A program made the translations under genes and the position numbers. A model generated the notes under the pieces. It was not told the origin of the DNA. It saw only the letters and a program-made list of their open reading frames with translations, and searched no databases. DNA of 39,950 bases. Origin: Ktedonobacteria bacterium. GTDB lineage: Bacteria > Chloroflexota > Ktedonobacteria > Ktedonobacterales > JACDGC01. This document shows, one piece after another, positions 5,225 through 39,950 of the stretch. The first letter of the stretch is position 1, and each line of letters begins with the position of its first letter. The stretch covers positions 1 to 39,950 of the forward strand of contig DAIDHM010000113.1 in assembly GCA_027459705.1 (NCBI GenBank). The letters are read 5' to 3'.

Positions 5225-5339
5225 TCCAGGGCAGGCTCCAGTCAGAACTGCGCGAAGGCAGCATCGTTGCCATGCTCGCCGCAACGTAAAGCGACCGAGC
5301 ATACGTTCATTGCGAGAGCAGCAAAGGAGCATCGTCGCT

Positions 5340-6662: not shown

Positions 6663-7627
6663 TGGCGCGAATCCCATCTGCAATGACGAGGCTGGCCGAT
6701 GTCGACCAGCCTCCTGCTTCGAATCCCAGGCCACGGTTCGCTTGGGCGAGATTTGGCAATTCTCCGTGGCCATGGCTCTTGCCATTGGCCGTGGTCCTGG
6801 TGTTTGTCTTTCTTTATCCTGTCATTGAGATCATTCGACTCAGTTTTACCAGTGCAACTCTGATCAATGAAAATACTCCTTATACCACTGGTTCCTATGC
6901 GACTATCTGGCACTCGCCAGATTTTATCTCGATGTTGCATGTCACCTTACTCTTCGTCATCTTTAGCGTGGTATTTCAAATGGCATTGGGGTTCGTTATT
7001 GCGCAGATTGTCACGATTGGCCAGCAACGCGGTTTACGTGGTACCGTAGCCACTCGTTCGGCGGTGTTAACCGCGTGGGCTATTCCTGGGGTGATTATCG
7101 GCATCATCTGGAGCTTACTATATCAAGAATCAAGTAGTGGGATTCTCAACTACCTGATTCGTCCGTTCACCCATCATGCAATTCCGTTTCTTTCTCAGCC
7201 ACAAGTCGCCCTGATCTCGTTGACAGTCGCGAATATCTGGCGCGGGACGGCATTCAGTATGATTCTGATATATGCAGGGTTACAGACACTCTCCGCTGAA
7301 GTGACGGAGGCTGCCAAAGTGGATGGTGCGAATGCCTGGCAACGGCTCGTGCGCGTCACTATCCCGCAACTCGCCCCCATGCTATTGCTCAATCTGGTAC
7401 TCATATTAATTGATACTTTTAATACATTTGATATGGTGTTGGCTCTGACAGGTGGTGGTCCTGGTCGCAGTACAGAGGTCATAGCGCTGACCATCTATGA
7501 TCAGATCTTCCAACAACTGAATCTTGGCATCGGGGCGGCCTATGCCGTCGTTCTCCTGACGATTAATCTCGTCATGACAGTAGTATATATTCGTTTGGTC
7601 GAACGTAGCGGACAGGGGAGGGCATGA
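6662..7627 (+). CDS. Sugar ABC transporter permease, UgpA/MalF type
   Basis: This is a MalF/UgpA-type inner-membrane permease with about six transmembrane segments; the first is around residues 38-60, after a Pro-rich cytoplasmic tail. The cytoplasmic EAA loop that docks the ATPase reads EAAKVDGANAWQRLVRVTIP, which matches the consensus EAAxxDGA. At 321 residues it is normal length. Its start overlaps the stop of the binding-protein gene, and its stop overlaps the next start in an ATGA junction, so the three genes are translated together. It carries the substrate released by the binding protein across the membrane. Confidence 0.93.
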   Translation: MARIPSAMTRLADVDQPPASNPRPRFAWARFGNSPWPWLLPLAVVLVFVFLYPVIEIIRLSFTSATLINENTPYTTGSYATIWHSPDFISMLHVTLLFVIFSVVFQMALGFVIAQIVTIGQQRGLRGTVATRSAVLTAWAIPGVIIGIIWSLLYQESSSGILNYLIRPFTHHAIPFLSQPQVALISLTVANIWRGTAFSMILIYAGLQTLSAEVTEAAKVDGANAWQRLVRVTIPQLAPMLLLNLVLILIDTFNTFDMVLALTGGGPGRSTEVIALTIYDQIFQQLNLGIGAAYAVVLLTINLVMTVVYIRLVERSGQGRA

Positions 7628-8469
7628 TGTCTCAAATTTGGCGACAACGTCTTACCGATTGCGCGATTTATCTCGCGTATGCGGTGATTATCATCTTTTT
7701 TCTCTTCCCGGTCTTCTGGGTATTCTCGCTCTCACTGCGCACAGTTCCCGAACTATACGCCTCCCCTCCAATTTGGTTTCCATTGCATCCTCAGTTCCAG
7801 AACTATACGTTCGTCCTGCACCAGACACCAATCGGCGGCTACCTGATCCATTCGTTGATCATTGTCACTGCGACGATTGCGGTGGTTTTGGGGATCGGCA
7901 TCCCGGCCGCCTATGCGCTTTCCCGTTTCAGATTTCGCTTATCACGCTCGGTACTGACGGCCATTCTGGTCTGTCAGATGATCTCGCCTGTGGTGATTGT
8001 CATTCCGCTTTACCACTTTCTGTCGATATTAAACCTTTTGAATAACTATGCCGCACTTATTCTCGTCTATAGCGCGTTGGCGCTCCCGTTCTCCACCTGG
8101 TTTTTGAAAGGCTTTCTGGATGCCGTTCCGCACGAACTCGATGAATCAGCCCAGATCGATGGTTGCAATCGATTCCAGACATTGCGGCGTGTCGTTTTGC
8201 CGCTGGCCATGCCTGGTATTACGTCGGCAGCGATCCTGGTCGCCGTGCTCAGTTGGTCACAGTTTGTGGTCCCGTTTATCCTGGTCGACGATTCGTCGAT
8301 TTATCCCGTAACCGTAGGCTTGGTGAACCTCCAGTCAAACTCTGATGGGATTACCCTGCAATATCTGGCGGCAGGCAGCATGATCGCGATTATCCCAGTG
8401 ATGATCGTCTTTATCTTTTTACAACGATTTATTGTCAGTGGCCTGACAAATGGTGCGGTCAAGGGATAA
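7624..8469 (+). CDS. Sugar ABC transporter permease, UgpE/MalG type
   Basis: This is the second permease of the pair, 281 residues with about six membrane segments. The EAA loop reads ESAQIDGCNRFQTLRRVVLP, followed by the typical LAMPG. It overlaps the previous permease by four bases (ATGA) and is the last gene of the operon. The next gene is the lectin on the opposite strand. No ATP-binding subunit follows, so the importer probably uses a shared MsmK/UgpC-type ATPase encoded elsewhere in the genome, as several carbohydrate importers of this class do. Confidence 0.93.
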   Translation: MMSQIWRQRLTDCAIYLAYAVIIIFFLFPVFWVFSLSLRTVPELYASPPIWFPLHPQFQNYTFVLHQTPIGGYLIHSLIIVTATIAVVLGIGIPAAYALSRFRFRLSRSVLTAILVCQMISPVVIVIPLYHFLSILNLLNNYAALILVYSALALPFSTWFLKGFLDAVPHELDESAQIDGCNRFQTLRRVVLPLAMPGITSAAILVAVLSWSQFVVPFILVDDSSIYPVTVGLVNLQSNSDGITLQYLAAGSMIAIIPVMIVFIFLQRFIVSGLTNGAVKG

Positions 8470-16042: not shown

Positions 16043-17065
16043 ATGGCAGATGAGACGATGCTGGCCACCAGCATGACGACCGACGCGCTCCTCGATGTCC
16101 AGGATTTAAAAGTCTATTTTCCCATGACTGGCGGGCTGCTGCAACGCGGTGGCGCCGTGCGCGCGGTGGACGGGGTGAATTTTACTATTCGACGCGGGGA
16201 GACGCTGGGATTGGTAGGCGAGAGTGGCTGTGGCAAATCGACAACGGGCCGCGCCATTCTGCAATTGATCCCCGTCACAGGCGGCAAGGTGATCTTTAAT
16301 GGGATGGATATCACCAAGCTCTCCCCCAAAGCCGTGCGCCAGAAACGCGCTGAGATGCAGATGGTCTTCCAGGACCCTTTCAGTTCACTCGATCCGCGCT
16401 ATACTGTCGCGCAGATCATCGGCGAGCCATTGGTGAATTTCAAGCGCGGCAATAATCGCGAGATCGACCAGCGCATCCGCGAATTGCTCTCGACCGTCGG
16501 CCTGCCGACCAATTCGTTGAATCGCTATCCCCATGAATTCTCTGGCGGGCAGCGCCAACGCGTGGGCCTGGCGCGCGCCCTGGCGCTGAATCCAAGCCTG
16601 TTGATCGCTGATGAGCCGGTCTCGGCGCTGGATGTCTCAGTGCAAGCGCAGGTGCTGAATCTGATGGAAGACCTGCAGCAGAAACTGGGACTGGCGTACC
16701 TCTTCATCTCGCATAATCTCTCGGTCGTACGCCACATCAGCCAGCGTGTGGCGGTCATGTATCTGGGGCGCATCGTCGAGATTACGGCGAGCCGCCAACT
16801 TTATGCTCAGCCGCTCCATCCCTACACCAAAGCGCTGCTTTCGGCAATCCCGATGCCGGATCCTGTGCTGGAGGCTACGCGCCAGCGCATCGTTCTCGCC
16901 GGTGACCTCCCCAGCCCGGTGGCGCCGCCCAGCGGTTGTCATTTCCATCCGCGCTGCCCACGGGCACAGGCACTGGGGAATCCCGAACGCTGTCGACAGG
17001 AATCGCCCACATTGACGATGGCGACGCTAGATCATGCGGTCGCCTGCCACTTTCCGGAGGCTTGA
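16043..17065 (+). CDS. Peptide ABC transporter ATPase, DppF type
   Basis: This is the second ATPase of the importer and forms the heterodimer with the DppD-type subunit. Walker A GESGCGKS is at 59-66, the Q-loop [11 protein letters not shown] at about 109-119, the signature FSGGQRQR at 166-173 and Walker B LLIADEP at 186-192. The C-terminal extension contains the [11 protein letters not shown] Cys motif. I chose the ATG at 16043 because GAGAGGT lies about nine bases upstream and it follows the previous stop by 20 bases. It has 340 residues. The DUF1028 gene follows two bases after its stop, which suggests one mRNA. Confidence 0.94.
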
Positions 17066-17067
17066 GC

Positions 17068-17955
17068 ATGCGCCAGACTCTCCCCACCCATCCGTTGGTG
17101 GCAACCTTCTCGATCGTGGGACGCGACGCGCGGACGGGCGACCTGGGAGTTGCCGTGCAATCAAAGTTCCTGGCGGTCGGCGCGGTCGTCCCCTGGGCGC
17201 GGGCTGGGGTGGGCGCCGTCGCCACCCAGGCTCTGGCCAATACGGACTACGGCCCGCAGGGCTTGAGTTTGCTGGCAGCTGGCCTACCGCCAGCGACTGT
17301 GCTGGCGCGGATGATGGAGGCCGATGACCTGGCCACGCAGCGTCAGGTGGGCATCGTCGATGCCCAGGGAGCCCACGCGACCTACACCGGCAGTGACTGC
17401 TTTGATTGGGCAGGAGGCCAGTCTGGACCCGACTTCGCCGCTCAGGGCAATATCCTGGCTGGCCCGGCTGTCGTGGCTGCCCTGGCGGAGGTGTTCGTGG
17501 CCAACGCGAGGCTGCCGCTCTGGGATCGTCTGTTGCTGGCACTCACGGCGGCGCAAGCCGCCGGCGGCGATCGGCGCGGTCGGCAATCGGCGGCGTTGCT
17601 CGTGGTGCGCGCGGGTGGTGGCTATGCCGGCCATAATGATCGCTTTATCGATCTGCGCGTGGATGATCATCCTGATCCGATTCCCGAGTTAATTCGGTTG
17701 TTAGACCTGCATAAACTTTATCTCTTCCCCTCCGATCCCGCCGATCTTCGTCCCATCACCACGGAGCTGGCCAGCGAGATCCAGACCAGGTTGATCGCGA
17801 CCGGCGATCTCGCGTCACCCCCCAGTGGTCAGTGGGATGCCGCGACCCAGCGAGCGATGGAGGCGTTCGTCGGGCGCGAGAATCTGGAAGAACGCTGGAA
17901 ACATCCAGGCCAGATCGATCAGGTGGTTCTGGATTTCCTGCGGCGCGCCCGCTGA
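17068..17955 (+). CDS. DUF1028 family, Ntn-hydrolase-like protein
   Basis: Residues 10 to about 205 match the DUF1028 family: ATFSIVGRD, LGVAVQSKFLAVGAVVPWARAGVGAVATQA, YGPQGLSLLAAG and RQVGIVDAQG. The family is placed in the Ntn-hydrolase superfamily, which cleaves amide bonds, but its substrate is not established. The last 70 residues (SGQWDAATQRAMEAFVGRENLEERW) look like the small peptidoglycan-binding-like domain often found at the end of this family. The ATG at 17068 follows GGAGG by seven bases and is two bases after the DppF-type stop, so it is probably the last gene of the peptide importer operon. Cleavage of an imported peptide or amide is a reasonable guess. No signal peptide is seen. 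Confidence 0.9.
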   Translation: MRQTLPTHPLVATFSIVGRDARTGDLGVAVQSKFLAVGAVVPWARAGVGAVATQALANTDYGPQGLSLLAAGLPPATVLARMMEADDLATQRQVGIVDAQGAHATYTGSDCFDWAGGQSGPDFAAQGNILAGPAVVAALAEVFVANARLPLWDRLLLALTAAQAAGGDRRGRQSAALLVVRAGGGYAGHNDRFIDLRVDDHPDPIPELIRLLDLHKLYLFPSDPADLRPITTELASEIQTRLIATGDLASPPSGQWDAATQRAMEAFVGRENLEERWKHPGQIDQVVLDFLRRAR

Positions 17956-26573: not shown

Positions 26574-26871
26574 AATGCCCTTACCCCCACCCACGACCGC
26601 GGCTCCACGTTGGAAGCGTCTTCGCAATCGATTGATCTCATCGTACCATATGTCACTCCGACCGGCTAAAGCCTTATGACTAACATTTCTCTGGCCTAAA
26701 TGAGAATCCAACGCCTATTGGCTATAATATCGCGCGAAGAAAGTCCTCCAGTTCAGCTTCCCGTGCGTTCTTTATTGTAGAGGGAAGTATAATTTCTCCG
26801 ATCGGGTTCTTCCGAACCGCATCAGGCAATCAATATAAGCAGCACATGCGGTTCATTTCGAGGTATTGTTG
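26574..26871. promoter_or_regulatory. Divergent intergenic region with an inverted repeat
   Basis: The gap separates the GTPase from the dimethylformamidase-like gene. A perfect 9-base inverted repeat, GAACCGCAT (26814-26822) and ATGCGGTTC (26846-26854), lies just before the latter and could be an operator or a leader hairpin. TATAAT at 26788-26793 is a possible -10 box without a clear -35. GAGG at 26860-26863 serves the ATG at 26872. Confidence 0.4.
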
Positions 26872-28797
26872 ATGCGCGATGGTCAGTGGCTCTCCTGGAT
26901 GCGGCGGCACCGCACCATCTCTCTCCCGTTGCTGGGGGGTATGGCGGCGATTATTGTGCTTGTCACGACCCTGGCCGTGGTCGTCCCCAAGTTGCGCACC
27001 CTCTTTGGGGCAGATCGCCCATTACAGACGACACAGCCCAAACCAATTGTCCCTGCCACCCCTTTGACCATACTCCAGGAGAACGCCTTGCCCGGGACAA
27101 CCGCGTGGATGCTCGACAAGGGCGCGGATACACTTTTTATCCAGGGTTACGCGGGCTCCGCGGCGATCACCGCGGGCGAGAGCGTGGCAATTTATGTCAG
27201 TTCCGCTCAAGCAGCGACCTATACCCTGGATGTCTACCGGCTGGGATGGTACGGTGGCCTCGGCGGCCATCTTTACTATAGCCAGAAAGGTCTGCACAGT
27301 CTGGCGCAGGGTGTCTGGGATATTACGCATGGCTTGACAGGTTGCACCACCTGCATCATTGATCCTAAGACCAAGTTACTGGACGCGAACTGGCAGTTAT
27401 CCCTGATGTTGACGACCGGCCCGACGTGGACCAGTGGCGTCTATCTCATCAAACTGACGTCGACAGGTCCAACTGGCCTGGCGGAATCTTACATTCCGCT
27501 TGTCGTCCGTGCGGAACTCCCTCAATCACCGATCCTGGCCGAGGTGCCAGTGATGACATATCAAGCCTATAATTATTGGGGTGGGTACAGTCTCTATCAG
27601 AAAGCGGGCAAGGCTGCCCTGGGTGGCGAAGAGACCGGCAATCGCGCGGTCAAAGTCTCCTTCAATCGCCCGTACGAGCGGGATGCGGGCGCCGGTGATC
27701 TGTTGAACTGGGATATCCATACGATCCGCTGGTTGGAACGCAATGGATTTCAGGTCGACTATGAGACAGGGCTGGATTTCGCGGCGCATCCCGAAGCGTT
27801 GTTGCAATATCATGTCTTGATCGCTTTGGGGCATGATGAATATTGGACGAAATCCATGCGCGACGGCGCGGAGAACGCGCGTGACCAGGGAGTCAACCTG
27901 GCATTCTTCGGTGCCAATGACGCCTACTGGCAGGCACGCCTGGAACCAGATTCCGCTGGGAATGCCGCGCGGACGCTGGTGTGTTATAAAGTGGCGACTG
28001 GCGCGACCACCGCCGATATGAAGCTGACGGATGATCCATACTATCCGGCTGATCCAGCGGAATTAACCGCGCAGTGGCGCGATCCGGTGATCAATCGACC
28101 AGAGAATGAGTTATTAGGCCTGATGTATTCCAGCTATTTTCTGGCCGCCGAGAATGGCAAGTTGAACCGACCAGATTGGGTGGTCAAGACTGGTCCGGCC
28201 GACCCCATGCTGGTAGGAACAGGTTTGACACCCGGTGCACATATCAAGGGTGGTCTGCTGGGTTATGAATATGACAGCGTCGCCAACAACAAGCATGGAC
28301 CCGCGGATCTGCACGTGCTAGCGCTCTCCCCCGTCCAGGATGTCTATAAAGATGTGCAGATGGCGGCGACCGCCTATTACCGCGCCACCTCCGGTGCACT
28401 GATTTTCGACGCTGGGTCGATCTGGTGGAGCTATGGCCTGGACGAGTTGTATGTCCCAGGCCAGTCACAACCCAATCTGTTGCGCGGCAACAAACAGATC
28501 ATGGCGCTGAGCAAAAATATCTTGCTGGCGATGCTCCCCGCCAATTTGCAACCAGTCAGCACACCGCCACCTAACGGAACGGGAACGGCTGTAGCCACCA
28601 TCGGACCAATCCAGAGCGCGACCCAGACGCCGGGAGCACATGGAAACGTCACCGCCACGCCAGGAGCGAGCGGCAACCCGATCGCCACGCCGGGGGCACG
28701 CAGCAATCCCACTGCCACGCCAGGGCCTTTGAGCAACCCCACCGCAACGCCAGGTGCACAGGACAACCCGACCACCACGCCCGGGTCGAACAATTAG
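26872..28797 (+). CDS. Secreted N,N-dimethylformamidase large-subunit-like protein with repeat tail
   Basis: A membrane anchor or signal segment lies at about residues 15-36. A long extracellular region resembling the C-terminal part of the dimethylformamidase large subunit follows: TYQAYNYWGGYSLY, FNRPY, LNWDIHTIRWLERNGFQVDY, LIALGHDEYWTKSMRDG, NLAFFGANDAYWQ and DAGSIWWSYGLDE. The family has a glutamine-amidotransferase-like fold, but the exact activity of these secreted members is not established. The C terminus is six copies of a ten-residue Thr/Pro/Gly-rich repeat beginning TPG. The start ATG at 26872 has GAGG eight bases upstream; two TTG codons precede it. It is a single gene followed by a strong hairpin. 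Confidence 0.85.
   Translation: MRDGQWLSWMRRHRTISLPLLGGMAAIIVLVTTLAVVVPKLRTLFGADRPLQTTQPKPIVPATPLTILQENALPGTTAWMLDKGADTLFIQGYAGSAAITAGESVAIYVSSAQAATYTLDVYRLGWYGGLGGHLYYSQKGLHSLAQGVWDITHGLTGCTTCIIDPKTKLLDANWQLSLMLTTGPTWTSGVYLIKLTSTGPTGLAESYIPLVVRAELPQSPILAEVPVMTYQAYNYWGGYSLYQKAGKAALGGEETGNRAVKVSFNRPYERDAGAGDLLNWDIHTIRWLERNGFQVDYETGLDFAAHPEALLQYHVLIALGHDEYWTKSMRDGAENARDQGVNLAFFGANDAYWQARLEPDSAGNAARTLVCYKVATGATTADMKLTDDPYYPADPAELTAQWRDPVINRPENELLGLMYSSYFLAAENGKLNRPDWVVKTGPADPMLVGTGLTPGAHIKGGLLGYEYDSVANNKHGPADLHVLALSPVQDVYKDVQMAATAYYRATSGALIFDAGSIWWSYGLDELYVPGQSQPNLLRGNKQIMALSKNILLAMLPANLQPVSTPPPNGTGTAVATIGPIQSATQTPGAHGNVTATPGASGNPIATPGARSNPTATPGPLSNPTATPGAQDNPTTTPGSNN
28627..28794 (+). repeat. 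30-base tandem repeat encoding TPG decapeptides
   Basis: Five full 30-base units start at 28627, 28657, 28687, 28717 and 28747, with a partial sixth at 28777. Each begins ACGCC and encodes TPG followed by variable residues, then N-P-T-A in most units. The flexible tail is probably exposed outside the cell. Such units can gain or lose copies by slippage. Confidence 0.85.
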
Positions 28798-30235: not shown

Positions 30236-31624
30236 TTACCGCCGCGACAGCCGCTGGCGTATGGCCTGCACCGCCGCCAACGAGAGGCCAGGACTCTGCC
30301 CCAACAGCCCACGGATCATGGCGAAGAAGCCGCTATCCATGCTGATGATTGGGGTCTCGAAAAGCGTTCGGCGCAGGATGGCATTGCCCGAAGGTGTCGC
30401 GAACAGCCCATAAAACGCGCGGACCTCGCTGGGAGTCGTCAACCGATCCAGCGCGACACGCAACCAATCTTCGACGCGCAGATATGGCCCCAATCCACCC
30501 GTCCGGGGCAGATCGCGCAGGTAGCCCTGGATCGCGCCGGGGGTATGGTGGAGTAGCGCGTTGGCGACGGCGTGCGCCGCCAGTGGACCACAGAGCAGAG
30601 CGGGGTAGATGCCCCCGCCAGTGGCCGCACCGCAGAGTCCGGCGGCATCGCCCAGCAACAAGGCATGCGCCGCGCTGTCATCGCGATACGGTTGGCGCAC
30701 TGCTCCGCCAACCGGAATGATCCCCCCTTTGCGTTCCACAATGCGCATCTGATCCATCGGCGTATAGGCCGCGAACGCGTCGGTGGCTTGTCGCAGGGCG
30801 TCGTTGGGTTTGAACGATCGCTGGTGCCCGGCGACACCCAGCGCGGCCAGCTCGCCATGCGGAGCTAACCAGAGACAATAGCCCGGCGCCAGGACCGGAT
30901 CCATGATCAACTCGAAGGTCTCACGATCGACGGGCACCCCGGCGACGATCCACTCCGCTCCCGCCAGGAAGCGTCCTGATTTGCCGGCATGCGCGGAACC
31001 AGCCCACACACCGAGTTGTGTCTGACGGGCGACCTGTGACTGCGCGCCATCGGCGCCAATGAGCAATGCCGCGGTGACAGTCTGTTCCGCCACCGCGCTG
31101 GTTTGCTCAGCCTCAGACGGTACGTGCACCGGCACCGGGCCACCCGGCGGGCCATCCGACGGGCTACCTGGCGGCGGGTCGGTACGATGCAGATAGGCGA
31201 TCTGCATCATGCCTGTGGAGTCGCGCTTTGCCGAGCGGAAAGTTGCCCCACAGCGGATCTCGGCGCCATGCGCCCGCGCGCTCTCGGCCATCCAGCGCAA
31301 CATCCCCGTCACATCCGCCATGAAGAATCGTGGGCCGCCGCCCTCCACCGTGATCGCATCGGGGATACCCGGAGCATGAATGCGGATACGTCGGACCGCA
31401 TTCAAAAGAAAGCGTTGTGGGACATCCATCAGGCTCAGCACATCACTGAAGAGCACCCCGGTGGTGCGTACGACGCCGCCCACCTCGGAGTCACGCTCCA
31501 GGACCAGGACGCGCAGTCCATGGGTCGCGGCAGCGCTCGCAAAGCTGAGGCCAGCAAAGCTGGCCCCCACCACCACGACATCAAATTGTACATCGAGTCT
31601 CTCGCCCATGGACTGAGCCACCAT
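30236..31624 (-). CDS. FAD-dependent oxidoreductase, geranylgeranyl reductase type
   Basis: Family members hydrogenate isoprenoid chains or perform related FAD chemistry. The FAD-binding motif VVVVGASFAG is at about 16-25 and ends with VLERD near 44. The second motif, LIGADGAQSQVARQ, lies at about 188-201, and the third, LLLGDAAGLCGAATGGGIYPAL, at about 325-350. A Pro/Gly-rich insertion (149-171) is absent from most relatives, and part of it recurs in the MFS transporter at 35162. The start is uncertain: ATG 31624 or ATG 31609, both with weak ribosome sites. It is 119 bases downstream of the catabolic operon and may be separately expressed. The substrate is unknown. Confidence 0.85.
   Translation of the reverse strand: MVAQSMGERLDVQFDVVVVGASFAGLSFASAAATHGLRVLVLERDSEVGGVVRTTGVLFSDVLSLMDVPQRFLLNAVRRIRIHAPGIPDAITVEGGGPRFFMADVTGMLRWMAESARAHGAEIRCGATFRSAKRDSTGMMQIAYLHRTDPPPGSPSDGPPGGPVPVHVPSEAEQTSAVAEQTVTAALLIGADGAQSQVARQTQLGVWAGSAHAGKSGRFLAGAEWIVAGVPVDRETFELIMDPVLAPGYCLWLAPHGELAALGVAGHQRSFKPNDALRQATDAFAAYTPMDQMRIVERKGGIIPVGGAVRQPYRDDSAAHALLLGDAAGLCGAATGGGIYPALLCGPLAAHAVANALLHHTPGAIQGYLRDLPRTGGLGPYLRVEDWLRVALDRLTTPSEVRAFYGLFATPSGNAILRRTLFETPIISMDSGFFAMIRGLLGQSPGLSLAAVQAIRQRLSRR
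31124..31147 (-). repeat. Coding repeat element in the flavoprotein gene
   Basis: On the minus strand this encodes PGGPVPVHV. The bases GGCACCGGCACCGGGCCACCC resemble 35831-35854 in the MFS gene, in the same reading frame, and 38771-38790 in a gap. This suggests a small mobile or expanding element. Confidence 0.45.
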
Positions 31625-31743: not shown

Positions 31744-33519
31744 TCAGCCACGCGGAATTATCGGCAGCAACACAAAGGCATCGTGCTCGCCACCGCCGAA
31801 CAGCGTATGGTCACCACCATAGATCTCGACCGGACGATCTTGCGGCGAAGTGTGGATGAACGGGCCAGACCCACGGAACTCATTCACCATTGTGGCCAGG
31901 CCCAACCCATGCACATCGCGTTCAAAATCCTGGCCTGAAATCGTCACCGCGATACGGTAGCCTGCTGGCAAGACCACACAAGTTGGCCAGACCTCAACCT
32001 CCAGGGGATAGGGCATATCGCGTAGCAACCGCTGTATTTCATCGTGGGTATGGTATGGCCGATAAGGGGTCGACAGGGCGGGATCCAGCTTGCGCTGCGA
32101 AGCGCGCAACCAGCCTTGCCCCAGCGGTGTATGGGGATCCAGCGCGCCATGAAAATCGATCTCGTTGCCATCCGGATCGAAGGCCCGCAGTGTCACGAAG
32201 ACATCGCCATCACAGGTGGATGAAGCGAAGACGAGCCGCGCCGCGACCGGACCGGTGATCTCCGTCTCATACGCTAATGGCGCCGAGGTAAAGGTGACCC
32301 CCGCGCTCAGCGCGGCATAGCGTGTCTGGCTGGCAGTCGCCACGGGCTCCCAACTCAATTGTGAATCCGCCGGATTCAGATAGAGCTTGGTCCAGCGCGT
32401 CCGCGCTAATGGCCACTCGTGTTCCATGCGCTGCTCGAAATGTTCGCCGGGATATCGTATTTGTAGCTGGACGGGGGGCTGTTCATCCCAGCCATTGGAC
32501 GCACCTTTGAGGAAGTGATCGAAGAATCGCAACTGCAAGGAGCGGCCATAATCCGTATAAAAATGCGTCCAATGCTCCAAACCATGCACTTCCAACCACT
32601 TCTGGTGCGAAGCAGCCCGCACAAAACCCTCGAAATTACCGCGTGGATGCAATCCCTGACCACCCCAATTGGCCGCCGAGAGGATGGGTACGGTCACTCG
32701 TGACCAATCTGGCGACCGGTTCTGGTAAAACGCATCATCCAGCGGATGGGCGAGCGCGTGCGCTTCCATATCGGTTCGATTGTGGGCCAGTTCCTCGTCA
32801 CTCAGCGTTTCTGGTCCTGAGACGAGCAGTCCGCTATTGGGATCGCGCGCGCCGCGTTCACCTAACCCATGCTGCACTGTGCGTACTTGCATGCGGAACC
32901 AATTCGCCCAAAAATCGCTGAGGATGCCGCCATGTCGCGACATATCGCGATAAAAATCCGCCGCGCCTTCCCAGGGGCAGATAGCGGCCAGGTGGGGTGG
33001 CTGGAGCGCTGCCACATGCCATTGATTGATCGCGTAATACGAAATACCATTCAGGCCCACCTTGCCATTGCTCCAGGGCTGGACCCCCGCCCATTCTATG
33101 CAGGCATAGAGATCTCTGGTTTCCCTCGGCGAGAAAACATCGATAAACCCCGGCGACCGGCCAGTGCCACGTGAATCGACGCGCACACAGGCATAGCCCG
33201 CTGGCACCCATTTCTCAGGATCGACCACTTCCCAATTCTGATACTTGTTGGAAGAACCGGCGACGACATCGGGGTGCTCGCGCGCCATGATCTCCCACTG
33301 ATCCGCGTAACCAACCTGGAACGGCAGGCCTTTGCCATAGGGGCCATACGTTAATATGACCGGAAAGACGTCCGCTCCTGAGGCTGAATGGGAACCGTCC
33401 GTGACGGGGCGGTAAATATCCGCTCTGAGGATGATGCCATCATCCATCGCGATCGGCACATCCCAATCGATGTGCATGCCATCCATCACCACACTGTGTT
33501 CTCGTCGTTCTTCACTCAT
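31744..33519 (-). CDS. CocE/NonD family hydrolase (X-Pro dipeptidyl-peptidase-like)
   Basis: An alpha/beta-hydrolase of the S15-like type is followed by a C-terminal jelly-roll domain. The block VRVDSRGTGRSPGF leads to the nucleophile Ser in GLNGISYYAI, and the likely catalytic His lies in LEVHGLEHWTHF. The position where CocE has Asp (in a GGWYD-type motif) reads SAANWGGQGLH here, so that acid may be missing or moved. The C-terminal domain includes VFVTLRAFDPDGNEIDFHGALDPHTPLGQGWLRAS. It has 591 residues and no signal peptide. Its start overlaps the MBL-fold gene stop by eight bases, and it is the last gene of the catabolic operon. Ester or amide cleavage is likely. Confidence 0.9.
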   Translation of the reverse strand: MSEERREHSVVMDGMHIDWDVPIAMDDGIILRADIYRPVTDGSHSASGADVFPVILTYGPYGKGLPFQVGYADQWEIMAREHPDVVAGSSNKYQNWEVVDPEKWVPAGYACVRVDSRGTGRSPGFIDVFSPRETRDLYACIEWAGVQPWSNGKVGLNGISYYAINQWHVAALQPPHLAAICPWEGAADFYRDMSRHGGILSDFWANWFRMQVRTVQHGLGERGARDPNSGLLVSGPETLSDEELAHNRTDMEAHALAHPLDDAFYQNRSPDWSRVTVPILSAANWGGQGLHPRGNFEGFVRAASHQKWLEVHGLEHWTHFYTDYGRSLQLRFFDHFLKGASNGWDEQPPVQLQIRYPGEHFEQRMEHEWPLARTRWTKLYLNPADSQLSWEPVATASQTRYAALSAGVTFTSAPLAYETEITGPVAARLVFASSTCDGDVFVTLRAFDPDGNEIDFHGALDPHTPLGQGWLRASQRKLDPALSTPYRPYHTHDEIQRLLRDMPYPLEVEVWPTCVVLPAGYRIAVTISGQDFERDVHGLGLATMVNEFRGSGPFIHTSPQDRPVEIYGGDHTLFGGGEHDAFVLLPIIPRG

Positions 33520-34429
33520 AGGATGGGAATGTACCTTTCTCCCTCAAACTGCGCCGGTGCGCCTGTATCGTGATGCGTGTCACCGGATTCACAGGAGCGC
33601 GGGTCCAGCCCGCGGTATCGAGAATCTGGCGAATGCGGTCGTCATCAATTGGCGTGGTAAGGTCGGGCCACGCGACGGCGGCCACCGCTGCGTCCAGGCG
33701 ATCCATCCACGCGAGGGTCGCGTCCAGCGCCGCCACGTCGGTCCGCGACGCCCCGGGCGCGTGACTGGAGAGCAACTGGGTATCCGGGCCGATGAGCGAA
33801 CGCAGCGTAGCCATGCTCACCCGCACCGCCGCCGGATCATCATAGAAAGGCGCGCCAACGACCTGAATGATGACATCGCCACTGATAATGACATTATCCG
33901 GCATGACCACGAGGCTGAGCGAACCAACGCTATGCCCGGGAGTGTGGACGACGGTCAGCTGGCAATCGCCCAGATCCACGACCTCCCCATCATCCAATGG
34001 GCGTTGCACCGGAACGGATCCACCCATCAATTGATCGAAATGCGGCAAGGGCCGTTCACGCGCCTGCAGGTCCGCATCCTCAATCCAACGGCATGCCAGG
34101 CGATGCGCCGCGACCGGCCAACCGTAGGTTTGGGTCAATTCCCGGGCCGCGCCGACATGGTCGGCATGCTCATGCGTGGCAAGGAAGAGATCGATCTCTG
34201 CCGGATCGACCCCCACGTCGCGCGCACCCGCCACGATCTGCGGCGCGTTCATGCGCGTTCCGCAATCAACCAGAACGGTGCCGCTGGGACTGGACCCGCG
34301 GATGAGGTAAGCATGGACAAGGCGCTCAGGCGTGGGCACGCCGAAATAGAGCGGAATCGCCCAGACGTGTGCGCTGACCTGGACCACGGCCGGGTGGTCG
34401 GGCCCTCGGCCCATAGCATCAGCACTCAT
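33512..34429 (-). CDS. MBL-fold metallo-hydrolase
   Basis: A metallo-beta-lactamase fold with a complete metal site: THEHADH (85-91), H166 in HTPGHSVG and D185 in ISGDV, and a later His in LSSHAPGAS. The product is 305 residues with a C-terminal helical extension (about 220-290) that may shape the substrate pocket. It lacks a signal peptide. Its start codon shares ATGA with the stop of the SDR gene, and its stop overlaps the start of the CocE-like gene, so translation is coupled. Hydrolysis of a lactone or thioester intermediate is possible, but the substrate is unknown. Confidence 0.92.
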   Translation of the reverse strand: MSADAMGRGPDHPAVVQVSAHVWAIPLYFGVPTPERLVHAYLIRGSSPSGTVLVDCGTRMNAPQIVAGARDVGVDPAEIDLFLATHEHADHVGAARELTQTYGWPVAAHRLACRWIEDADLQARERPLPHFDQLMGGSVPVQRPLDDGEVVDLGDCQLTVVHTPGHSVGSLSLVVMPDNVIISGDVIIQVVGAPFYDDPAAVRVSMATLRSLIGPDTQLLSSHAPGASRTDVAALDATLAWMDRLDAAVAAVAWPDLTTPIDDDRIRQILDTAGWTRAPVNPVTRITIQAHRRSLREKGTFPSYE

Positions 34430-35190
34430 GGCATCACCCCGCCACCATTGGCATCAAGTACCGCACCAGTGATGAATGTCGCGGCATTACTCGCAAAAAA
34501 GAGGATGGAATCGGCATGCTCGCTGGCTTCACTGATGCGATGCTGCGGAATCAACTGCTCCAAATTCGCGATCGTCGTGTCATCGTAGAGTTGGCGTATG
34601 CGTGGCGACCAGGCAACTCCAGGGGCGGTCGCGTTGACGGTGATCCCATTCGGCGCTAGTTCGCGGGCGAGTTGGCGCGTCATGCCGATCAACCCGGCCT
34701 TGCTGGCGACATAATGCAGTGAAGCGTGCACCGGCGCCCCGCGTGCCAGCCAGGATGAGACGAGAACAATACGCCCCCATCCACGTCCCAGCATGTGGGG
34801 CACGGCGGCGTGGCACGTCAAATAGACCGATTTGAGGTTGAGGTCCACAATAGCGTCCCATTCCTCCTCATCAATCTCCAGCAGCGTGCGGCGATACCAG
34901 AAACCGCCCGCGGTGGTCACCAGGATATCAATCTGCCCATACGCCAGCACCACCTCGCCAATCGCGCGTTCGACCTCCGTGCGGCTGGTCACATCCGTGC
35001 GAAACGCCTGCGCGTGCAAGCCCTCGGTGGTCAAGCTCACGGCCAGGTCCTGCGCGGCCTGCCCATCGCGATCAAGTATCGCGACCGTCGCGCCCTGACG
35101 CGCGAATTGCGCCGAGGCCGCCCCCCCAATGCCCGCTGCGCCGCCCGTCACGACGACGACCTTACCGCGCAATTCCGGATACTCTGCCAT
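34426..35190 (-). CDS. Short-chain dehydrogenase/reductase
   Basis: A classical SDR with the NAD(P)-binding TGGAAGIG motif (15-22), the active-site Ser in VSSW (145-146), and Y160 with K164 (YVASK). Asp at the end of strand 2 (AILDRDG) favours NAD over NADP. The NNAG motif is TTAG here. At 254 residues it is full length. The start overlaps the MFS stop by 29 bases and the stop overlaps the MBL-fold start by four, so it is part of the overlapping operon. It probably oxidises a hydroxyl intermediate of the pathway. Confidence 0.93.
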   Translation of the reverse strand: MAEYPELRGKVVVVTGGAAGIGGAASAQFARQGATVAILDRDGQAAQDLAVSLTTEGLHAQAFRTDVTSRTEVERAIGEVVLAYGQIDILVTTAGGFWYRRTLLEIDEEEWDAIVDLNLKSVYLTCHAAVPHMLGRGWGRIVLVSSWLARGAPVHASLHYVASKAGLIGMTRQLARELAPNGITVNATAPGVAWSPRIRQLYDDTTIANLEQLIPQHRISEASEHADSILFFASNAATFITGAVLDANGGGVMP

Positions 35191-36646
35191 ACTCTACCTC
35201 CTGATTTCTGGTGCGATCGGATGGTTCGGTTGCCGACTCTGGCCACAGTGTCGATCGACTGATCATCAGAACAATCGCGAACATCACCACGCTGGTGGTC
35301 CAGAAGCCCGCAACATACGTCCCGGTGAGATGGACCAGCGCGCCGATCAGCGGCGGCAAGGTCAAGGCGACGCCATTGCTCGCGACGATCACCAGCGTGA
35401 TGCGCCAATCCAGGCCACCGGGCGCTGGTCGGGTCGCGACAGACCCAAAGACCGTCCCATACGAGACATTGACACAGAACGTGAAGACGAGCAGTGCGCC
35501 CACTGCCAGCGCGAGGTTGGGCGCGACGGGGGTCGCCAACAGGGCCACACCACCGCCTAGCCCGGCGAAGATGACCAGGCGGCGCATCCCCAGCCAGGTG
35601 GTGGCGCGCCCGCTGATCAGTCGCCCCACCACCGCCATACCAGTCGCGCCAGCCGCCAGGAACGCCGTCTCCCTCGCGGTGACGCCGAAACGGTCCGCGA
35701 AGAATGATGCGATCCAGGCCGTGATGCCAACAAAGATGGCGTAGCCAATCACATTTGCCCCGGTCAGCAGCCAGGTAAAACGCTCCGTGAAGACAGCCAG
35801 TGTGAATGGCGTCCGCGTTGGCACCCGCACTGGCACCGACACTGGGCCACCCGGAGAGCTGTCCCGCTGAGGAGCAGATACTGATTGGCTCCGTGCCAGT
35901 GGAGGAAAAAGCCACATAATGACGACAAAGCCAATGAGCATGATCAGCGCATATCCCAGCCAGAACGGCGCCAGCCCCCACGCCGATGTTCCGAGCGGCG
36001 CCAACAGCGCGGTCAACACGATGCCAAACTGCTGACCAGCGCCAATCAAGCCCTGATCGCGCACCTTGACCGCGGCGGGGCTATAGCGCGCGATGACCTG
36101 CACACTGGCCGCTCCGACCAGCCCCGTCCCGATCCCCGTCATGCCGCGACTGATGAGGAGCAGAGCGAAGGTGGGGGCCAGGGCGCGCGCGACACAGGAT
36201 ATCGCCATGATCGCCATGCCCCAGAGGATGCCACCACGCGGTCCGGTCCAACGGATCCAGCGGGGCATGGCGGCGATCATCAAGGTGTGGCAGATAATCG
36301 TCGTCGAGACCGCCCAGCCCGCAGAGGTCGCACTCACCTGATAGATTGCGCGTTCGAACGGTAGGATGGCGCTGATATCCAAGAATACCAGGCCGAGCAT
36401 GATGCCGCTCAAGATCGTCGCAACGAGCATGCCATGATAAGCGCCAGACGGCAACACGCTGGCGATTGTCCCAGAAGCCGACCGCTCTCTTCCCAGATCG
36501 GCCCCAGCAGCCAGCACGTCTCCCGGGTGGCCTGGTGCCGCTGGCGGCATGCCGTCCGGCGAGTGCCAGTCTGGCGCCACACTGCGCGATTCGGTGTCCT
36601 GCGTTTCTTCAGGGAATGACGACCGCTCGGCCGATGATGCCGCCAT
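35162..36646 (-). CDS. MFS transporter
   Basis: A major facilitator with 12 predicted membrane segments. A hydrophilic N-terminal tail of about 65 residues comes first, and a central loop (about 250-280) links the two halves. The first half has MARW-like charged motifs between helices 2 and 3 (MPRWIRWTGPRGG). The central loop contains SPGGPVSVPVRV, similar to an insertion in the flavoprotein gene at 30236. I chose the ATG at 36646 because GGAGG lies eight bases upstream. This start lies 38 bases inside the preceding alcohol dehydrogenase gene. It likely imports the substrate or exports a product of the operon's pathway. Confidence 0.9.
   Translation of the reverse strand: MAASSAERSSFPEETQDTESRSVAPDWHSPDGMPPAAPGHPGDVLAAGADLGRERSASGTIASVLPSGAYHGMLVATILSGIMLGLVFLDISAILPFERAIYQVSATSAGWAVSTTIICHTLMIAAMPRWIRWTGPRGGILWGMAIMAISCVARALAPTFALLLISRGMTGIGTGLVGAASVQVIARYSPAAVKVRDQGLIGAGQQFGIVLTALLAPLGTSAWGLAPFWLGYALIMLIGFVVIMWLFPPLARSQSVSAPQRDSSPGGPVSVPVRVPTRTPFTLAVFTERFTWLLTGANVIGYAIFVGITAWIASFFADRFGVTARETAFLAAGATGMAVVGRLISGRATTWLGMRRLVIFAGLGGGVALLATPVAPNLALAVGALLVFTFCVNVSYGTVFGSVATRPAPGGLDWRITLVIVASNGVALTLPPLIGALVHLTGTYVAGFWTTSVVMFAIVLMISRSTLWPESATEPSDRTRNQEVEYGRVSGIAR
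35821..35854 (-). repeat. Coding repeat element in the MFS gene
   Basis: It encodes PGGPVSVPVRV on the minus strand. The GGCACCGACACTGGGCCACCC stretch is close to the element at 31124-31147 and is in the same frame. Similar GGGTGGCC-cored sequences also lie at 36523-36540 and 38771-38790. Confidence 0.4.
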
Positions 36647-37703
36647 TGCGCAGATCCTCCAGCGCCGTATTGACCTCCGCGAGCGCGTACGTTCGACTGA
36701 CAACCGGCGTGAGGCGACCGGCGCTCAGCAAGTCTATGACTTCGGTGAATTCCTGGCGACCGGAGGCGCGACTGCCGATAATGCGGAAGTCGTTCAGCAC
36801 CACATCCATCGTCCGAAAGGTGCTGAGTTGGTCCGGGGTATACCCGATCAAGACCAGCGCGCCATCTGGCCGCAGCAGGGCGAAATCCCTATCGAGCGCG
36901 GGCTGGGTCGAGACGAAATCCATCGCGACTTCGACCCCGGCGCCCCCGGTCGCCGCGCGCACCATGCCGACCACATCATCACGCGCGACGTGCAATGCGA
37001 GATCGGCTCCAAATTCGCGGGCCAGGCGCAGCTTTTCCTCATCGACATCGACGACCGCCACCCGCGCCCCCAACAATTTCGCGACCTGGATGGCATGCAG
37101 CCCGATGCCGCCCGCTCCGGTCATGTAGACCCAATCCCCAGCTTGCACATTGGCGCGCCTGGTCAATGCATGCCAGGCCGTCGTGAGGCAGTCACCTAAC
37201 AGGGCGATATGCTCGAATGGGATGCTCGGTGGCACCACGACCACATGTGACACAGGCACCTTCAGATATTCGGCATAGGCGCCATCGATGGTGAAGCCAA
37301 TGCGCCCTGCCATGTGCGGACAGATCTGCTCACGTCCGGTCTGGCAATACACACATTCCCCACAATTCAAAAAGATGACAACCCCGACATGATCGCCGAC
37401 GCTCACCTCGGTCACTGCGGTGCCAATCGCCGCCACTTCACCGGCCGGCTCGTGACCGGGGATATGGGGCAATGGGACGCCTTTGATTTTGCCTGCGGTG
37501 ATCTTGAGATCTGTGCCACAAACCCCCACGGCGCGGACACGCACCAGGACATCGCGCGGCCCGATCGCGGGGACTGGTAGTTCACGCTCCTCGAGGAGCG
37601 CCGCCGCACTCGCTGACGCCTGGCTACCCGGCGTGCCCGAGCCAACCGGTTCCCCCCCAAATTTCGTCAGTACCATCGCGCGCATCGTCGCGGGAATATG
37701 CAT
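36609..37703 (-). CDS. Zinc-dependent alcohol dehydrogenase (MDR superfamily)
   Basis: A medium-chain dehydrogenase. Catalytic zinc ligands are C62 and H84-E85 (GHE), and the structural zinc site has four cysteines at 114, 117, 120 and 128. The NAD(P)-binding motif GAGGIG is at 196-201, with Asp at the end of strand 2 (VVDVDEEK), which suggests NAD. An Ala/Ser-rich insertion at about 18-38 is unusual. The product is 364 residues. The ATG at 37703 follows GGAGG by about seven bases and lies 11 bases after the amidohydrolase stop. It probably oxidises an alcohol intermediate to the aldehyde used by the neighbouring aldehyde dehydrogenase; that link is inferred. Confidence 0.94.
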   Translation of the reverse strand: MHIPATMRAMVLTKFGGEPVGSGTPGSQASASAAALLEERELPVPAIGPRDVLVRVRAVGVCGTDLKITAGKIKGVPLPHIPGHEPAGEVAAIGTAVTEVSVGDHVGVVIFLNCGECVYCQTGREQICPHMAGRIGFTIDGAYAEYLKVPVSHVVVVPPSIPFEHIALLGDCLTTAWHALTRRANVQAGDWVYMTGAGGIGLHAIQVAKLLGARVAVVDVDEEKLRLAREFGADLALHVARDDVVGMVRAATGGAGVEVAMDFVSTQPALDRDFALLRPDGALVLIGYTPDQLSTFRTMDVVLNDFRIIGSRASGRQEFTEVIDLLSAGRLTPVVSRTYALAEVNTALEDLRNGGIIGRAVVIP

Positions 37704-37714
37704 CGCACTCCTCC

Positions 37715-38707
37715 TTATCCCAGATGGGCTAACCGGGTGATGTTGCCACCCAGGATGGCCGCGCGATCACTCTCGCTCAGTCCTGACAGGCCTTCGATCT
37801 CGCCGACCGGATCATCCTGGCCCATATCGAACGGGAAGTCTGAACCGAGGAGGACGTGATCAGCGCCAAAAAGCTCCACCAGTACACGCAATTGCGGGTC
37901 GCCATGGGCGATCGTATCCACATAAAAATGGCGTGCTGCCGCCATGGGGCTGGTCTTGAGATCGCGTTGCGGCTCCGGACGTTTTTCCCAGCCATGTTCC
38001 CAGCGCCCCATAATCCAGGGCATCGTCCCACCCGCATGGCCCAGCATGACCTTGAGGTCTGGCAGTTCGGTGAAGAGGCCCGAGAAGATCATGTGCGCCG
38101 CATTGAGACCAGTTTCGCTGGGATTGCCGACGAGATTCGTCAGATAATACTGCTTGAGGGTTGGCGAGGAATGCCCCTGGAAATATTCGGGATGGATGAA
38201 AACAAAGAGATCATCGGCGGCACAGGCTTGCCAAAATGGACGGAATTCAGGATCGCCTAGATGGACGCCACGTACATTGCTGCCAATCTCGACGCCGTGG
38301 AACCCCAGCTCATGAGTCGCCCGGCGCAATTCGGCCAGCGCGAGCTGGGTATCCTGCATAGGGATCATCGCCAGCGGTGCGAAACGATCGGGATGCTGGC
38401 GCGCGACCGCAGCCATGGCGTCGTTCTGGATGCGCGCGGCGTTCAGCCCTTCGGCACCCGGCAGATCATACAAAAAAAGAAAAGGGGGCGGGCAGATGAG
38501 CATCATATCGATGCGCAACTTATCCATTGCGGCCAGCATGCCAGGGACATCCGATCCCTCGTGCGGCATGGGGCCATTGCGAACCTGGACATTCGTGGAA
38601 TACACACCTTCTGGTGTCCGTTCGAGGCGCGGTCGCCACGGTTCCGGCCCGTGATCGGCAGTAATCTCTTCGACGATGATATGCCCGTGAGCATCGATAT
38701 GGCGCAT
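37715..38707 (-). CDS. Amidohydrolase-family protein, ACMSD-like
   Basis: The TIM-barrel metal site starts with DAHGH (residues 5-9). FIHPEY, GHAGGTMPWIMGR and, near the end, GADHVLLGSDFPFDM supply the other ligands. The order and spacing match the ACMSD branch, which contains decarboxylases and hydrolases of small aromatic and muconate-type acids. It has 330 residues. The ATG at 38707 follows GAGGAG by about eight bases. In ACMSD relatives the reaction is non-oxidative decarboxylation, but branch membership does not fix the substrate. It is the second gene of the operon, after the aldehyde dehydrogenase. Confidence 0.92.
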   Translation of the reverse strand: MRHIDAHGHIIVEEITADHGPEPWRPRLERTPEGVYSTNVQVRNGPMPHEGSDVPGMLAAMDKLRIDMMLICPPPFLFLYDLPGAEGLNAARIQNDAMAAVARQHPDRFAPLAMIPMQDTQLALAELRRATHELGFHGVEIGSNVRGVHLGDPEFRPFWQACAADDLFVFIHPEYFQGHSSPTLKQYYLTNLVGNPSETGLNAAHMIFSGLFTELPDLKVMLGHAGGTMPWIMGRWEHGWEKRPEPQRDLKTSPMAAARHFYVDTIAHGDPQLRVLVELFGADHVLLGSDFPFDMGQDDPVGEIEGLSGLSESDRAAILGGNITRLAHLG

Positions 38708-38770
38708 GGTTTGCTGCTCCTCATTATGGCTTGGCGCCGTGCGTTATCGCCCGCGCGGCGAGGCCGGAAG

Positions 38771-38790
38771 CCGGGTGGCCCGTGCCGGTT
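38771..38790. repeat. Intergenic copy of the GGGTGGCC-type element
   Basis: The sequence CCGGGTGGCCCGTGCCGGTT in the gap between the aldehyde dehydrogenase and amidohydrolase genes resembles the reverse complement of the coding elements at 31124 and 35821. The rest of this 208-base gap shows no gene. Confidence 0.35.
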
Positions 38791-38915
38791 GCTGGGGGTG
38801 TACCTGCTGCGATAAGCAAGCCTATGTTCGCTGCCCCGCGTGGTAGTCTCTCAAGGCCACCAACTACTCGGCCCCAGGTGCTGCCCACAAGCAGCGTCGA
38901 TCAATGCGGGTGTGC

Positions 38916-39950
38916 TCAATTGAGTCGCATGGCGTCGGCGCTATCGTACCAGGTCACCGGGTCCTCCGTCAGGCTGACCCAGACACTCTTTACCTCGGTG
39001 AAGGTATGGATCGCGTCCAGGCCATTTTCGCGACCAATTCCAGAATACTTGAATCCGCCCCAGGGAGACCCCGGCGCGTTGCGATGATGATCGTTGATCC
39101 AGATCGTTCCGCTCATCACATCGCGCGCCACGCGGTGCGCCCGCGCGACATTCTGCGTCCATATCGCCGCGCCGAGGCCAAAGGGGATATCATTGGCGAG
39201 CGCGATCGCTTTGGCCTCTGTCTCGAACGGCATGATCATCATGACCGGCCCGAAGATCTCTTCCTGGCAGGCGCGCATCTGATTATCGGCATCATAGAAT
39301 GCCGTGGGGGTCAAAAAGTAGCCATCCTGCAGCGCGGCATCACTGGGTCGATGGCCACCGGTCAACAATTTCGCGCCATCCTGCCGCGCCGATTCGATGT
39401 AGCTCTCAATGCGTTCGCGCGCACCCGCGCTGATCTGCGGCCCCATCTGCGTCGTGGGATCGCTGGGGATGCCAACTTTCATGGCTTCCAGGCGCGCTTT
39501 GAACCGCGCGAGAAATTCTTGATAGATGCTGCGCTGCACGAGTACGCGGGTCCCGGCAATGCACGTCTGGCCCGCCCCGATGAATCCGGACCACTGGGTC
39601 CCGCGGACTGCGCGGTCCAGGTCCGCGTCCGCGAAGACCAGTACCGGGGCTTTACCCCCAAGTTCACCACCGAAACGCTTCATACCATCGGCGCAGACCT
39701 TCATGATGGCTTTGCCGGTGGCAGTGGATCCGGTGACATCCACGCGCGCGATGGCAGGGTGCGCCACCAGCGGCGCGCCTGCGTCAGGCCCGTACCCCGA
39801 CAAGACTTGCAAGACGCCGGGAGGCATCCCCGCCTGGCGCGCGAGATCGGCGACTTCCAGCAAGCTGCAGGGCGCCAACTCACTCGGCTTGAGGATGACG
39901 CAGTTTCCAGCGGCCAATGCTGGCGCCAACTTTTTGGTGGCGATCAACAA
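38916..39950 (-). CDS. Aldehyde dehydrogenase, partial (5' end beyond window)
   Basis: NAD(P)-dependent aldehyde oxidation. The visible 344 residues begin inside the cofactor domain (KKLAPALAAGNCVILKPSELAP). The general base Glu in GGELGGKAP, the catalytic Cys in GAGQTCIAG, EEIFGPV, and PWGGFKYSGIGRENG near the end are all intact. About 140-150 N-terminal residues must lie outside the window, because full-length enzymes have about 480-500. It shows best general resemblance to betaine-aldehyde or hydroxymuconic-semialdehyde dehydrogenases; the difference cannot be settled here. It is followed by a 208-base gap and then the rest of the catabolic operon in the same direction. Confidence 0.95.
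   Translation of the reverse strand: MLIATKKLAPALAAGNCVILKPSELAPCSLLEVADLARQAGMPPGVLQVLSGYGPDAGAPLVAHPAIARVDVTGSTATGKAIMKVCADGMKRFGGELGGKAPVLVFADADLDRAVRGTQWSGFIGAGQTCIAGTRVLVQRSIYQEFLARFKARLEAMKVGIPSDPTTQMGPQISAGARERIESYIESARQDGAKLLTGGHRPSDAALQDGYFLTPTAFYDADNQMRACQEEIFGPVMMIMPFETEAKAIALANDIPFGLGAAIWTQNVARAHRVARDVMSGTIWINDHHRNAPGSPWGGFKYSGIGRENGLDAIHTFTEVKSVWVSLTEDPVTWYDSADAMRLN

Follow-up and report, generated by a model that had tools for sequence, protein, structure and literature searches.

A seven-gene run in an uncultured Ktedonobacterales-like Chloroflexota genome as the probable 3'-terminal third of a peripheral catabolic cluster of 18 genes

Introduction

2-Amino-3-carboxymuconate-6-semialdehyde decarboxylase (ACMSD) is the closest structural relative of the amidohydrolase considered here. 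Its metal site is formed by His9, His11, His177 and Asp294, its catalytic residue is His228, and Arg239 and Trp194 are substrate residues (PMC11650718). The amidohydrolase (AH) is encoded within a run of seven genes at positions 31744-39950 of contig DAIDHM010000113.1 (C160) of a Ktedonobacteria bacterium (GenBank assembly GCA_027459705.1). The entire contig of 39,950 nucleotides (nt) was analyzed and is referred to as the window. Our best reading is that this uncultured Ktedonobacterales-like member of the Chloroflexota carries a peripheral catabolic cluster of 18 genes, of which the seven form the 3' third, and to this reading, with its full mechanism, we assign a probability of about 0.62. 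The existence of the larger cluster is itself well supported by genes split between contigs and by gene order in a relative. The cluster is a combination of known enzyme families for which no described pathway was found. The first-pass annotation had matched the seven genes to no named pathway, and literature searches of open-access papers likewise returned none for the combined parts list, which may be described elsewhere.

Results and Discussion

The window contig ends, at position 39950, within an aldehyde dehydrogenase (ALDH) gene, so the seven genes are the cut-off tail of a larger run and not the seven-gene operon proposed in the first-pass annotation. The host assembly consists of 245 contigs, and the missing parts were sought with an M24 protein and a flavoprotein from G020, a genome of the same order and a different family. 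These probes recovered host contig C203. Its terminus encodes the first 164 ALDH residues, ending ITPWN, and the window ALDH starts LLIATKK; the spacing between the two halves is exactly 6 nt, or two codons, in the intact ALDH loci L110, L108 and L102. LivK is also split, with its body at the end of C213 and its C-terminus at the start of C203, and about five codons are absent between them when measured against G020 LivK. The split genes and synteny, rather than reads, indicate the host order C213 (reversed)-C203-C160 (reversed). The run thus appears to continue past position 39950 and comprises about 18 co-directional genes when read across these joins:

LivH-LivM-LivK-LivG-LivF-ADH2-CrtO-like-M24a-2HADH-M24b-SDR2-ALDH-AH-ADH1-MFS-SDR1-MBL-CocE

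A divergent arm, FAH-SDR3-HisD-isochorismatase, faces away from this run. The components added upstream are a LIV-type ATP-binding cassette (ABC) importer, two M24 metalloenzymes that keep M24-type ligand motifs, a second alcohol dehydrogenase (ADH2), a 2-hydroxyacid dehydrogenase (2HADH) and a CrtO-like flavoprotein. The features of the seven-gene run are as follows.

End of host contig C203, L170:10298-10789: missing 5' part of ALDH; split-gene match, 6-nt gap
38916..39950, minus strand: ALDH, C-terminal 344 residues; Pfam Aldedh 5.3e-123 from profile position 140; catalytic Cys and Glu motifs
37715..38707, minus strand: AH, Amidohydrolase-2 with ACMSD fold; Pfam Amidohydro_2; best PDB match ACMSD
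36609..37703, minus strand: ADH1, zinc-dependent medium-chain alcohol dehydrogenase; Pfam ADH_N and ADH_zinc_N; catalytic and structural zinc motifs; 63% identity to G020
35162..36646, minus strand: MFS transporter; Pfam MFS_1; start codon uncertain (36703, 36646 or 36547)
34426..35190, minus strand: SDR1, short-chain dehydrogenase; Pfam match; TGxxxGIG and YxxxK present
33512..34429, minus strand: MBL-fold metallo-hydrolase; Pfam Lactamase_B; HxHxDH motif intact
31744..33519, minus strand: CocE/NonD serine hydrolase; TIGR00976 267.9 bits (cut-off 66.3); S15 and PepX_C Pfam domains

All seven open reading frames lie on the minus strand, and the families given in the first-pass annotation are confirmed by Pfam and NCBIfam. 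Active-site motifs are unbroken in ALDH, ADH1, SDR1, MBL and AH. ALDH and AH are separated by 208 nt. Of the junctions described earlier, the 11-nt gap between AH and ADH1 and the overlaps of 29 (MFS-SDR1), 4 (SDR1-MBL, ATGA) and 8 bases (MBL-CocE) stand. The 38-base overlap between ADH1 and MFS holds only for the start at 36646; it becomes 95 with TTG at 36703 and a 61-nt gap with ATG at 36547. This overlap is a matter of start-codon choice, since the N-terminal ~67 residues of MFS are unconserved in its sole close homologue, that of G020. The SDR1 start, MAEYPELRGK, is backed by homologues (MATYPEL, VARYPEL). Shared orientation by itself is weak evidence, the contig being gene-dense. The grouping is nevertheless not attributable to chance, because the junctions are tight and the gene order is conserved in G020. 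A scan for sigma-70 promoters and terminators gave site numbers about equal to those in shuffled sequences.

G020 keeps the order from LivH to SDR1 at 39-83% identity: LivK 60, LivM 54, LivH 55, LivG 65, LivF 74, ADH2 71, CrtO 68, M24a 83, 2HADH 68, M24b 74, SDR2 70, AH 65, ADH1 63 and MFS 39%. The SDR1 orthologue is partial (60% over 70 residues) and occupies the same place. Conservation peaks at M24a, whose 83% exceeds the 68% that the house-keeping TGT shows between these two genomes. The G020 island differs from the host cluster by an extra HMGL-like gene, by the lack of ALDH and MBL in the block, and by HIBADH and a hydantoinase in the divergent arm in place of host FAH and HisD. The G020 hydantoinase and isochorismatase share a contig with the conserved block, and the G020 CocE (74%) stands alone on another contig near a PucR-type regulator. 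Gene order in relatives is therefore conserved in part: AH-ADH1-MFS-SDR1 is kept in G020, and MBL-CocE, absent from that block, is kept separately elsewhere. In L062 (Anaerolineae) and L063 (Acidobacteria), an MBL orthologue (34-39%) lies a short distance upstream of CocE, an isochorismatase follows the pair, and CocE is the nearest to the window CocE outside G020. MBL and CocE thus appear to be a separable second module. MBL was rejected as a beta-lactamase, scoring 81.7 bits against the bla_subclass_B3 cut-off of 240 and falling under every cut-off.

Close homologues of AH and MFS among 400 phylum genomes, and of ADH1 among 47 order genomes, occur only in G020 (39-42% for MFS); the other AH relatives are 36-43% identical. 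Five sampled genomes of the same family lack the cluster. The TGT neighborhoods of same-family genomes contain no operon gene, and the neighbor of TGT differs, so an empty site is undefinable. The distribution is patchy, presumably through loss or transfer.

Individual parts are distributed more widely. A scan of genome contigs with AH as a single protein gave no match, and an alignment of CocE was used next. It confirmed 582 loci, in Pseudomonadota, Actinomycetota, Chloroflexota, Acidobacteriota and others, and 80 were kept for neighborhood counts. Relatives of AH are found near CocE in 22 of the 80, an SDR in 21 and MBL in 2; stricter thresholds give isochorismatase at seven, a HisD-like protein at seven and hydantoinase at four. 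The chance expectation for isochorismatase is well below one by a rough estimate (about one close copy per genome, windows of at most 22 kb). A single conserved CocE operon was rejected, being defined neither by the CocE tree nor by the variable neighbors. Several loci in other phyla hold multiple parts. L082 encodes M24a (68%), CocE (64%), isochorismatase (41%), ADH2 (48%), M24b (59%) and hydantoinase (54%); L131 encodes HisD (70%), CrtO (54%), ADH2 (52%) and AH (40%); and L063 has a hydantoinase-MBL-CocE-isochorismatase-nitrilase row. Molybdenum-hydroxylase subunits are encoded at the Geodermatophilus and Ancylobacter loci and in an island on a plasmid of Haloarcula sp. JP-L23, for which no paper linking a catabolic substrate was recognized among titles and abstracts. 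The Haloarcula CocE homologue (L171, CP050017.1 19439-21159) is unannotated and matches in two pieces, suggestive of a frameshift or sequencing error. The host also encodes an allantoinase/hydantoinase-like protein on contig C219 (L161, 9563-10906), 65% identical to the clustered G020 copy and located among F420-cofactor genes and trigger factor-ClpX-Lon.

The cluster is best read as a peripheral pathway that breaks down an imported carboxylate containing amide or ester bonds and ends in oxidation and possibly decarboxylation. The LIV-type importer LivHMKGF, helped or replaced by MFS, would import a small polar compound. M24a, M24b, MBL, CocE and the isochorismatase of the divergent arm would open amide, ester or cyclic bonds, after which ADH1, ADH2, SDR1, SDR2, 2HADH and the CrtO-like flavoprotein may generate carbonyls by oxidizing the carbons of alcohols, hydroxyacids or amines. 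ALDH would oxidize an aldehyde to a carboxylate, and AH may remove a carboxyl group or hydrolyze a C-C or C-N bond to deliver the product to central metabolism. The gene content, split genes, synteny, folds and active-site motifs are observed; the sequence of reactions and the type of substrate are inferred from them. Several observations weigh against this reading. SDR2 is flanked by gaps of 295-386 nt, and these, with the 208 nt after ALDH, suggest that the presumed co-transcription may be divided over several transcripts. MBL, CocE and ALDH are missing from the G020 block and may thus be dispensable to the pathway. The neighborhoods of CocE differ widely in other phyla, and the host hydantoinase homologue is located away from the 18 genes.

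The recurrent partners (isochorismatase, hydantoinase and M24) are more suggestive of amide or cyclic-amide chemistry. A narrower form of the same reading is the degradation of a cyclic amide or N-heterocycle, in which a hydantoinase-like enzyme would open the ring, isochorismatase, M24 and CocE would cleave the amide, and oxidation and decarboxylation would follow. It is in keeping with the hydantoinase and isochorismatase on the contig of the G020 block, with the L063 row and with the molybdenum-hydroxylase subunits at the Haloarcula, Geodermatophilus and Ancylobacter loci. However, none of the hydantoinase, isochorismatase and molybdenum-hydroxylase genes is within the window, and the host hydantoinase homologue lies outside the cluster, beside F420 and protease genes, and scores under every NCBIfam cut-off. 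We regard this form as tentative and less likely than not.

Two independent modules could instead be present, with AH-ADH1-MFS-SDR1 and the upstream cluster acting on one compound and MBL-CocE acquired separately for another ester or amide. The G020 block without MBL, the solitary CocE of that genome and the tight MBL-CocE-isochorismatase operon in L062 and L063 are consistent with such an arrangement. Yet the 4-nt SDR1-MBL and 8-nt MBL-CocE junctions tie these genes to the same unit in the window, a 74% identical CocE is retained elsewhere in G020, and L082 has CocE together with M24a, M24b, hydantoinase and isochorismatase. Full independence of the modules is rather unlikely.

The first-pass annotation suggested induction tests with aromatic esters, lactones and furans. 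The CocE and ALDH families do include aromatic-ester and aromatic-aldehyde enzymes, and the N-terminal part of ALDH is nearest, among NCBIfam models, to phenylacetaldehyde and HpaE dehydrogenases, far under cut-off. But neither the operon in the window nor C203 nor the initial 9 kb of C213 encodes an oxygenase or a ring-cleavage enzyme, which extends the earlier observation that no ring-cleavage oxygenase was visible, and the partner genes encode amide hydrolases, not aromatic-pathway enzymes. A substrate of this aromatic ester, lactone or furan kind lacks specific support and is improbable. That the contig is foreign to the organism, as the cluster's absence from the five same-family genomes and the 245-contig assembly might suggest, is very improbable, because the TGT on the window contig is closest to genomes of the host's family (67-76% identity), which largely refutes a foreign origin, and the guanine-plus-cytosine content of C203 (61.1%) matches that of the operon (61.6%), without an abrupt break along the window contig.

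Other genes in the window

A flavin adenine dinucleotide-dependent geranylgeranyl-reductase or lycopene-cyclase-like protein is encoded at 30236-31624, just downstream of CocE on the same strand; its gene is not beside TGT in four same-family genomes. On the plus strand, 26866-28797 encodes a 643-residue protein with an N,N-dimethylformamidase beta-subunit-like domain (DMFA2_C, 1.4e-101), in which a degenerate 30-base tandem repeat (28650-28781) encodes a C-terminal ATPGA..NPT-like tail. A GH38 alpha-mannosidase gene followed by sugar-type ABC transporter genes occupies 2537-8469, also on the plus strand. A gene for a DUF1028 and peptidoglycan-binding protein (16936-17955) adjoins oligopeptide-type ABC transporter genes.

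Comparison with known systems

The predicted structure of CocE (AlphaFold2 predicted local distance difference test score, pLDDT, 93) is closest in fold to 3ib3/3iii, the uncharacterized S. aureus SACOL2612, with which it has 31% identity, a template modeling (TM) score of 0.81-0.87 to 3ib3 and the nucleophile motif GxSYxA in common. Rhodococcus cocaine esterase is more distant (TM 0.72, ~22% identity). Ser160 and His316 of CocE are invariant in 52 relatives. The acid of the cocaine esterase triad is Asp259 of a WYD motif; the same position reads WGG in the window CocE and WST in 3ib3. The residue at the expected position is Gly in the alignment, and the acid was not located in the model.

The AlphaFold2 model of AH resembles ACMSD over the whole fold (pLDDT 92; Foldseek TM 0.92), with 28-29% identity. 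The equivalents of the four metal ligands (H7, H9, H172 and D290), the catalytic His (H224) and Arg239 (R235) are invariant across a 21-sequence alignment. Unlike ACMSD, the AH subfamily has an invariant Asn191 in place of the active-site Trp194/191, and no other kynurenine-pathway gene is nearby. The kynurenine pathway was rejected, as AH lacks the ACMSD Trp and the partner genes are absent. AH may be a decarboxylase or a hydrolase, and the name ACMSD is not warranted.

The M24 enzymes are likewise distant from described pathways. The nearest NCBIfam model to M24a is DddP, the dimethylsulfoniopropionate (DMSP) lyase, yet M24a scores 106 bits against its equivalog cut-off of 600. M24b is nearest to PepQ and ectoine hydrolase, with 88 bits against 575 for DoeA/EutD and 80.6 against 613 for TIGR02993, and the M24 scores are far under peptidase cut-offs as well. 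The gene surroundings match neither the DMSP nor the ectoine hydrolase pathway. DMSP and ectoine catabolism were dropped on these sub-cut-off scores.

Viewed as a whole cluster, seven loosely named genes become a testable pathway in which M24a stands out by its conservation. M24a, M24b, CocE, the ACMSD-like AH, ADH2, the CrtO-like flavoprotein, isochorismatase and the LIV importer recur in different phyla and on a plasmid from a haloarchaeon, with no assigned substrate found. It is conceivable, though on balance doubtful, that they constitute an undescribed pathway that has moved among Chloroflexota, Actinomycetota, Pseudomonadota and haloarchaea, its dedicated M24 enzymes and CocE-type hydrolase jointly attacking a cyclic amide or amide-ester that is taken up by the cell and lies outside every known pathway. 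Cultured relatives that hold parts include Paenactinomyces guangxiensis, Rhodomicrobium, Geodermatophilus and Haloarcula sp. JP-L23. The island on the Haloarcula plasmid (CP050017.1) shares M24a (61%), CocE (57%), ADH2 (43%), HisD (44%), 2HADH (42%) and FAH (43%) with the host cluster, and differs in being archaeal, in its added molybdenum-hydroxylase genes and in its rearranged gene order.

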